Assembly (NCBI RefSeq): GCF_004014875.1
Contig: NZ_CP034929.1
Coordinates: forward strand, 434,001-498,000
Source of the DNA: Nocardioides yefusunii
GTDB lineage: Bacteria; Actinomycetota; Actinomycetes; Propionibacteriales; Nocardioidaceae
Direction of reading: 5' to 3'
Length of the DNA stretch: 64,000 bases
Every line of letters begins with the position of its first letter. The stretch's first letter is position 1. The translations under genes were made by a program, and so were the position numbers. Below are positions 35,630 to 36,963 of the stretch, in pieces. The notes under the pieces were generated by a model that made no database searches, had not been told where the DNA came from, and saw only the letters and a program-made list of their open reading frames with translations.

Positions 35630-35639
35630 GCCCTCCCTT

Positions 35640-35674
35640 CCCCTCTCCCCTCTCCCCTCTCCCCTCTCCCCTCT
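35640..35674. repeat. Tandem CCCCTCT heptamer (5 copies)
   Basis: Five exact copies of CCCCTCT lie in a pyrimidine tract starting ten bases after the pstB stop, between it and the first palindrome. The tract is purine-free for about 50 bases and could slip or form unusual structure. Confidence 0.9.
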
Positions 35675-35681
35675 CCCTCCC

Positions 35682-35793
35682 GGACGTCATAAGGATCGTG
35701 GGTCAGAGGGCCGGATTCTTATGACGTCCTGCGCTCCGCCCCGCCGGACGTCATAAGAATCGCGGGGCAGGGGCCTCGATTCTTATGACGTCC
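35682..35793. repeat. Upstream pair of 48-bp palindromes
   Basis: Unit 1 (35682-35729) and unit 2 (35746-35793) each consist of a 16-bp arm GGACGTCATAAGRATC, a 16-bp loop and the complementary arm. A 16-bp spacer separates them, giving a 64-bp period. Unit 2 has perfect arms and unit 1 has one mismatch. The loops are alike (G-rich, GxGGGxCAGxGG). Confidence 0.92.
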
Positions 35794-35944
35794 CGAGGCG
35801 TGCACAGGGGCGAGGGACCGAGGGTTCTCCGGAGTTCTTCCACAGGGCGACGGCAGGCAGCGACCTCGACGAACGCCAGATGACGACGCTGGACCGATGA
35901 CTGTCCAGCAATCTCTTCCCCGGCTACCGCGCCCACAACGACGT

Positions 35945-36862
35945 ATGGAGCTCGAGACCATCGCCGCATTGCAGGCCGAGGTCGTGAGCGTTCACCAGGC
36001 GTATCGAACCGGGTTGACCGCGGCTGAGGTGGAGGCAGACGTCCGCGCTCGCCGCTGGCGCCGTGTCGGTCATCAGTGCTTGGTCCTGCACACTGGTCCG
36101 CTCGTGCAGGAAGCCCGCGAGTGGCTTGCAGTCCTCGACGCGGGACCACGTGCTTGTCTCGACGGCGCCTCGTCCTTGATCCGTGCCGGGCTGAAGAACT
36201 ATGACGTGGACCGGATCCGGGTGTCGGTGCCTCGAGGGGTCCCGGTCCGGAGCATGGAGGGGGTGGACGTCCGACAGACCCGCCGCCTACGGCTCGACGA
36301 TCTCTCCGACGACCGGTTGCCTCGGACCCGCACCCCGGTCGCAGCAGTACGGGCAGGTCTGTGGGCGAGGACGGACCGGCAAGCGGGTCTGCTCGTGTCG
36401 ATGGCTGTGCAGCAACGTCTGACGTCTCCTGCGGAGCTCGCGGTGGAGATGATGAGGGTCCGGCGTGACCGGCGGCGGATGCTGCTCAACGAGCTCGTCG
36501 TGGAGATCGGTGGGGGAGCTGAGTCACTCGGGGAGATCGACGTGGCCCGGGAATGCCGCTCTCGTGGGCTCCCGGAGCCGACGCGCCAGTCGGCGCGCAA
36601 GGGCCCGAACGGTCGTTGGTTCCTCGACGTCGAGTGGAAACGGTACGGCGTGGTCGTGGAGGTCGACGGGATCCAACATGCGTGGGCGCAGCACGTGGTG
36701 GGAGATGCGCTGCGGCAGAACGAGCTGGCGATCGCAGGCGCCTTGGTCCTGCGGCTTCCCCTGTCCGGGCTGCGCTGGGCGCCCGACGAGTTCTACGCCC
36801 AGGTCGAGTCGGCGCTCCGATCGCGGGGTTGGAGCCGCCGTTGGCCCTCAGGGACGTCATAA
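35945..36862 (+). CDS. AbiEi-like / DUF559 (PD-(D/E)XK nuclease-fold) protein
   Basis: The protein has 305 residues from ATG 35945 (35897 is also possible). The N-terminal part (about 1-100) looks like the winged-helix and beta segment of AbiEi-type proteins (RTGLTAAEVEADVRARRWRRV). The C-terminal part has the DUF559/Vsr-like nuclease pattern: GAESLGEIDVAREC, GLPEPTRQ, WFLDVEWKRYGVVVEVDGIQH (Asp, then Glu-x-Asp) and ALVLRLPLSGL. These proteins are common in Nocardioides-type genomes; their role is unclear. The TAA stop lies inside the left arm of the third palindrome. The gene separates pstB from the pit operon. Confidence 0.75.
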   Translation: MELETIAALQAEVVSVHQAYRTGLTAAEVEADVRARRWRRVGHQCLVLHTGPLVQEAREWLAVLDAGPRACLDGASSLIRAGLKNYDVDRIRVSVPRGVPVRSMEGVDVRQTRRLRLDDLSDDRLPRTRTPVAAVRAGLWARTDRQAGLLVSMAVQQRLTSPAELAVEMMRVRRDRRRMLLNELVVEIGGGAESLGEIDVARECRSRGLPEPTRQSARKGPNGRWFLDVEWKRYGVVVEVDGIQHAWAQHVVGDALRQNELAIAGALVLRLPLSGLRWAPDEFYAQVESALRSRGWSRRWPSGTS

Positions 36863-36963
36863 AGATCTAGGCCCAGAACCCCGGATTCTTATGACGTCCG
36901 AGAGGTGGCTGACTGGGACGTCATAAGAATCGAGGCCCTTGGGCCACAGAAGTGATGACGTCC
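36852..36963. repeat. Downstream pair of 48-bp palindromes
   Basis: Unit 3 (36852-36899) and unit 4 (36916-36963) have the same 16-16-16 design, 16-bp spacer and 64-bp period as the upstream pair. Unit 3 has arms differing at three of 16 positions. In unit 4 the right arm has decayed to ATGACGTCC. The loops (AGGCCC-rich) resemble the reverse complement of the upstream loops, suggesting that the two pairs face each other. Confidence 0.9.

Follow-up and report, generated by a model that had tools for sequence, protein, structure and literature searches.

A DUF559 nuclease-type gene of Nocardioides and its family of dispersed palindromes: a candidate two-part REP-like element

The window analysed here, a stretch of 64,000 nucleotides from the genome of Nocardioides yefusunii, carries between pstB and pit a gene for a DUF559 protein with two 48-bp hairpins on either side, and this locus is one member of a genus-wide system in Nocardioides and related soil bacteria. 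The DUF559 gene looks like the partner of a palindrome family, a pairing that is well supported by the sequences compared, and we consider it rather probable that gene and repeats make up a two-part REP-like element, in which a DUF559 nuclease gene lies between its cognate palindromes and further copies of the latter are scattered elsewhere. This reading draws on patterns apparent in the sequences, namely the flanking of the gene, the co-divergence of protein and palindrome, the dispersal of the palindromes, the conservation of the pairing and the helical phasing of neighbouring units; the role that we infer for the pair is built upon them. The parts of the locus, in window coordinates, are as follows.

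35682..35729, no strand: hairpin 1, 48 bp, outer member of the upstream double
35746..35793, no strand: hairpin 2, 48 bp, both arms exact, inner member of the upstream double
35897..36862, plus strand: gene of 321 codons, AbiEi-like module and DUF559 PD-(D/E)XK-type domain
35921..36517, plus strand: AbiEi-like module (winged helix and NTase-like fold), about residues 9-207
36521..36832, plus strand: DUF559 / PD-(D/E)XK-type domain, about residues 209-312
36852..36899, no strand: hairpin 3, 48 bp, inner member of the downstream double, its left arm including the stop codon of the gene
36916..36963, no strand: hairpin 4, 48 bp, with a diverged right arm, outer member of the downstream double

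The initial annotation of this DNA had described four palindromes, each built of a 16-bp arm, a 16-bp loop and a 16-bp arm and repeated with a 64-bp period on both sides of the gene. The palindromes are indeed real: their start-to-start steps are 64, 1106 and 64 bp, and a search allowing up to 3 mismatches recovered seven of the eight arms in the window, all with at most 2 mismatches, compared with a mean of 0.20 and a maximum of 2 arm matches in 100 shuffles of the window. The positions given for the arms are right, but the geometry had to be amended, as the ‘loops’ are partly complementary, so that each unit is one 48-bp hairpin, and as only about 10 of the 16 bases in the right arm of hairpin 4, by a visual count, agree with the consensus. 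As described, a palindrome arm, namely the left one of hairpin 3, includes the stop codon (TAA, 36860-36862), and the gene separates pstB from the convergent pit (both names read from translations). The suggestion that the downstream loops are reverse complements of the upstream ones is weak by eye, the loops of the family being generally G+C-rich and semi-palindromic, and reading the hairpin pairs as the two ends of one transposon is unsupported. The gene may also start later, which would give the 305 aa of database entry P0001. Directly before hairpin 1, at 35635-35680, repeated CCCTCTC units form a pyrimidine tract; several other hairpins of N. yefusunii are preceded by pyrimidine-rich and followed by purine-rich DNA.

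To judge from its sequence, the gene product is a probable DNA-cutting enzyme. The DUF559 domain matches above the curated cut-off, the residues E213, D244, E255, D257 and H261 are invariant in 48 sequences, and comparison with the PDB gave weak matches for the nuclease domain, the N-terminal module being recognised as an AbiEi antitoxin fold. No AbiEii (DUF1814) toxin gene was recognised next door, where the translations read as those of pstB and the convergent pit. There are four DUF559 matches in the N. yefusunii genome, two of them over the cut-off, and no match to RAYT (PF01797) over the cut-off, the best reaching 12.8 bits; a RAYT acting in trans was rejected on this basis.

A search with the window protein gave matches in 135 of 215 genomes of the genus (at most 10 candidates being scored per genome), which split into close homologues with about 48-60% identity and paralogues with about 30-37%. 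From the matches listed we read 110 close-homologue and 20 paralogue loci, mostly from hairpin-bearing genomes; one of the latter 20 gave no match to the window protein. A hairpin with GGACGTCAT-type ends, the only type counted at this step, lies within 500 bp of 85 of the 109 homologues with at least 45% identity (on both sides in 67, on one side in 18 and on neither in 24). This type was found beside none of the 19 sampled paralogues, and it is also absent beside one broken homologue at 43.6%. Not all of these 24 homologues are truly bare, as many of them carry palindromes with other ends (GCGTCAT, ACGTGTG, ACGTCCT), often around the same 30-base middle. A strict palindrome score, which misses imperfect units, was positive on at least one side in 71 of 102 homologues (both sides in 32) and in 15 of 19 paralogues (both sides in 11), and in none of 242 shuffled flanks, an approximate control based on two-base-block shuffling. 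We also scored, blind to sequence, whether the upstream and downstream palindromes match each other. This was so for 63 of the 102 homologues and 9 of the 19 paralogues, 39 homologues failing the test, and, among random 900-bp pseudo-genes, for only 2 of the 293 placed in these loci and 1 of the 164 placed in the window.

In most within-genome comparisons the palindrome sequence follows the clade of the protein, not the host. On the protein tree the palindrome type goes with the protein clade, as judged by eye, and in 20 of 22 comparisons drawn from 11 genomes with two usable copies the palindrome of the closest protein from a different genome is the more similar one; 4 of the 22 comparisons use the near-identical pair G135/G136, one of the favourable ones has low scores (G089, 2 versus 1), and the exceptions are one tie (G188) and one case against (G068). 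Such comparisons within genomes partly control for host relatedness. The ACGTGTG type has 3-7 matches in each of six genomes with the corresponding protein clade, some of the one-mismatch matches not being palindromic, and an unconvincing 2, 0, 1 and 0 matches in four genomes without the clade. One genome, G094, contains 60 GGACGTCAT units, yet its close homologue is of the ACGTGTG type; these units may be orphans. In N. yefusunii itself, a second DUF559 match, which at 18.3 bits stays below the cut-off, has 37-bp palindromes of its own on both sides, with the arm TGGAGGATCGCTGTCA; the genome has full copies of these at 4 additional places and one isolated arm at another (1 match for the reversed control). 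Another DUF559 gene of this genome, at L031:1451, has a 59-bp palindrome on one side and one of a different kind on the other.

The palindromes of the window type are widely dispersed in the N. yefusunii genome. Their arm, GGACGTCATAAGAATC, has 95 matches there (up to 2 mismatches) in about 38 clusters, and the reversed pattern used as a control has none. Compared with only four DUF559 matches, this number led us to reject a mobile cassette unique to the window locus and leaves a restriction of the palindromes to DUF559 loci unsupported. The initial annotation had listed the occurrence of the arm at many DUF559-free places as an outcome that would count against its proposal; the arm does occur at such places, yet this is also what a REP-like system predicts. 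In the stretches read from this genome, the two arms are 32 bp apart and the hairpins are single or double; the starts of a double lie 63-65 bp from each other, or 80 bp in one pair. The hairpin ends, GGACGTCAT and ATGACGTCC, pair with each other and contain CGTC inside the paired arm. Fifty-three units from these stretches were selected for their ends, with up to 4 mismatches tolerated, and for a minimum of 15 pairs out of 24; in these, the outer 9 positions pair in 98-100%, partly by construction of the selection, and the middle pairs in modest excess over a partner shuffle (z up to 6.1), with no excess at positions 13, 17, 18, 21, 23 and 24. In 349 distinct units from loci L083 upward, a few of them from N. 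yefusunii and all selected on ends rather than pairing, the excess over the shuffle is clear at positions 10-12 and 16-22 (z 5.5 to 23, values inflated by common inheritance) and not clear at position 15 (z 1.6).

As RNA, the hairpins have a mean predicted energy of -33 kcal/mol, and their mononucleotide shuffles one of -12 kcal/mol. A rough purpose-made gene caller places 20 of 39 clusters in convergent gaps, 12 in tandem, 4 in divergent and 2 in intragenic positions and 1 at a stretch edge; convergent gaps account for about 30% of the intergenic bases of the window. Strong hairpins, many of them between convergent genes, would also be expected of ordinary bidirectional terminators or structural repeats among which the DUF559 gene merely tends to sit. 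We find this very unlikely, given that matching pairs surround 63 of 102 DUF559 genes and about 1% of controls, that protein and palindrome co-diverge, and that terminators do not predict the helical phasing described below.

Across the genus, the pattern GGACGTCAT-N30-ATGACGTCC (up to 2 mismatches) is present in 154 of 215 genomes, with 0 to 102 copies per genome and none in the remaining 61, and its reversed control matched one genome, once per strand. The genera among the matches listed are Nocardioides, Marmoricola, Aeromicrobium and Mumia, in addition to records not placed to genus. The ends are common across the genus and the middles look lineage-specific by eye; the full arm pair of the window type was not found in the 57 relatives searched for it. 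Genomes with a close homologue (n = 96) have a median of 10 hairpins and those without (n = 119) a median of 1, at least 3 hairpins being present in 82 of 96 and 42 of 119, respectively, in counts uncorrected for relatedness between genomes. Fourteen genomes have at least 10 hairpins and no close homologue detected among the at most 10 candidates scored per genome, and four have a homologue without a match to the pattern (other ends in G087 and G128, ends with 3 mismatches in G217, a contig fragment in G185). Nine tandem hairpins with a 62-bp period occur at L119:3320-3863 in Nocardioides sp. GY 10127. Near the pit genes of some relatives (L389, L391, L403, L264, L269) there is another palindrome family of about 60-68 bp (e.g. 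TATCTAGGGACGTTCTGG..).

In the one genome mapped, that of N. yefusunii, 32 of 38 clusters lie in the chromosome half around coordinate 0 (p 2.4e-5), and a dnaA-like ORF at the contig start lies near this point. The palindromes might thus mark an origin-side domain, the protein being a nucleoid factor, and the helical phasing would suit such chromosome-organising sites. Nevertheless, we regard this as the least probable of the explanations weighed here: the copy number is highly variable, down to zero in the 61 genomes lacking the pattern, the palindrome sequence turns over with the protein clade, the acidic nuclease residues are invariant, and the origin bias comes from a single genome.

From the start of one hairpin to that of its neighbour there are 51-53, 62-65, 72-74, 83-84 or 92-93 bp, with one distance of 80 bp, so that the spacing clusters on whole helical turns, from 5 to 9 (R 0.85 at 10.5 bp for 64 arrays, with a p value inflated by relatedness). 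In the 52 arrays left when N. yefusunii is removed the best period is 10.2. Nineteen labels contribute to the 5-turn class, 17 to the 6-turn and 7 to the 7-turn class, some of these labels being loci of the same genome; off-phase spacings include the 80 bp of N. yefusunii and 88-bp steps in G064, which is outside the 64-array sample. We read this phasing as pointing to a protein bound to one face of duplex DNA. A bound protein could also be part of an autoregulated nuclease, with the flanking palindromes serving as operators as in abiE and the dispersed copies as regulon sites or, in defence, as marks telling self from invader; the AbiEi-like module is in keeping with this, and AbiEi and Rv2827c bind inverted repeats at their own promoters, according to the available text of PMC7319586. 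We nonetheless hold this alternative to be unlikely, as the palindromes also stand at the 3′ end of the gene, half of the clusters mapped with the rough gene caller (20 of 39) lie in convergent gaps, and the copy number ranges from 0 to 102 within one genus.

Returning to the REP-like element, the comparison of relatives makes movement of the palindromes plausible and slow. One hairpin unit lies inside a coding sequence of Nocardioides soli, presumably for a CoA-carboxylase-like protein, of which N. yefusunii has a relative without the unit; there is no clear target-site duplication at this one unit gained inside a gene, as judged by eye. Among 16 rows of empty-site candidates, one is a clean gain (L204 versus L056), L098, compared with L113 and L182, offers a candidate that is less clean and lies within a coding stretch, and the remaining rows were rejected as array changes or other palindromes beside DUF559 genes. 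The array length beside the gene differs between relatives, and the homologues adjoin pit in about a dozen genomes, by comparison of coordinates, and lie elsewhere in others. The initial annotation had proposed a comparison with sites where pit directly follows pstB; in G177 these two genes are separated by about 131 bp, and no DUF559 gene lies in this gap. G135 and G136, the closest pair compared, share nearly all listed sites, and movement is therefore slow; the place of one G136 hairpin is taken in G135 by about 2.4 kb of other DNA.

Two proposals of the initial annotation, a REP/RAYT-like unit that uses a PD-(D/E)XK protein and a nuclease having recognition sites of its own, are favoured by flanking, co-divergence and dispersal, with cutting and movement as their conjectural part. 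In the scheme we propose, the AbiEi-like N-terminal module would bind the palindrome arms as duplex DNA, much as AbiEi binds 23-bp inverted repeats, and the C-terminal PD-(D/E)XK domain would cut at or beside the palindrome or its cruciform. Repair would then copy the palindrome into new sites, or keep it where it is. A PD-(D/E)XK fold is not known to join strands by itself, and the scheme therefore has to call on host repair. The DUF559 nuclease would thus be the counterpart of what RAYT is for REPs, with unrelated chemistry.

Similar pairings may exist beyond the genus. Of 30 DUF559 loci sampled from other families of the phylum, 8 gave no readable ORF, and 4 of the 22 readable ones have matching flanks by a script whose scorer missed a short palindrome type, 3 being kept after exclusion (L431, L441, L446). 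The locus set aside, L429, has a short gene matching DUF559 with palindromes on both sides that resemble parS sites, which is the reason for its exclusion. Five short DUF559 loci adjoin CCCTCCCC-type palindromes by eye, and a regular expression found these on both sides at L423, L425 and L426 and on one side at L424 and L428. Among 16 loci from a plasmid collection, some of them chromosome-sized and all picked from 44 matching records, a CCCTCTCCC-type palindrome adjoins 12, including 8 that have it on both sides; an earlier scorer had found a shared palindrome pair at 6. The flanks of four loci hold 13 clusters versus 0.23 expected from the surrounding 50 kb, the loci being picked as positives and the control thus biased. 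In Escherichia coli MG1655, the DUF559 gene ycjD (L469:1108-1461) has a degenerate CCCTCTCCC-type palindrome at its 3′ end, another of this type about 170 bp past it, and a different one with perfect 17-bp arms upstream, none of them matched by the regular expression used for the plasmid-collection loci. Similar DNA occurs in 3365 of 5426 E. coli genomes, and all three of the strains lacking ycjD that we looked at have efflux genes at that place. In Pseudanabaena (L476:21947-26812), a DUF559 domain and palindromes occur inside a PglX-like gene of a BREX-6 cluster, a gene with several more palindromes. A broader proposition is that DUF559 proteins throughout bacteria serve palindromic repeat families as their dedicated enzymes, every clade recognising and spreading a palindrome of its own, with AbiEi-fused forms and long variable palindromes in Actinomycetota and short forms with the widespread CCCTCTCCC palindromes elsewhere; we consider it evenly balanced between true and false.

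Literature searches, mostly without subscription papers and preprints, returned no report pairing DUF559 with palindromes or inverted repeats, and no relevant report of a repetitive sequence linked with ycjD. A DUF559 PD-(D/E)XK domain is shared with the Caulobacter protein VsrA, a Vsr-like DUF559 protein for which a role in mismatch repair has been proposed (PMC12907096), in a paper whose available text does not mention palindromes. DUF559 proteins, now labelled Vsr-like or of unknown function, would gain a concrete DNA target if our reading holds. The AbiEi and Rv2827c antitoxins, as described in the accessible part of PMC7319586, have a similar two-domain fold and bind inverted-repeat DNA, whereas the module is here fused to a nuclease-type domain and the sites are dispersed genome-wide. 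The triplex motif TM_ECO / PIT, CCCTCTCCC..GGGAGAGGG, is the same type of repeat as that beside many short DUF559 genes, and its site No 9 is the palindrome lying about 170 bp beyond ycjD on the 3′ side; mobility genes were never found at these sites, and the text available to us makes no mention of DUF559 (Holder 2015, PMC4666352). CGTC-tagged REPs are likewise palindromic repeats of many bacteria, said to lack a dedicated transposase (Di Nocera 2013, PMC3733652, where the text at hand has no mention of Actinobacteria); CGTC is also present in the ends described here, but inside the paired arm of a 48-bp unit, whereas in those REPs it is unpaired and the stems are 8-9 bp. A palindrome-tracking nuclease offers repeats such as the CGTC REPs and the CCCTCTCCC motif a candidate partner amenable to experiment. 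The closest likeness in organisation is to REPs and REPINs with their RAYTs (TnpA-REP, ‘REPtron’), which, as far as the consulted portions of PMC3733652 and PMC8266576 go, also combine dispersed, mostly extragenic palindromes, often in inverted pairs and lineage-specific in sequence, with an enzyme gene flanked by copies of them. The enzyme there is a Y1 HUH transposase and here a DUF559/PD-(D/E)XK protein, and the present repeats are 48-bp units with no GTAG tag, their neighbours phased on duplex DNA. Were the broader proposition on DUF559 proteins to hold, REP systems would include a second class that is not of the HUH type, and some repeats with no known partner would gain one.
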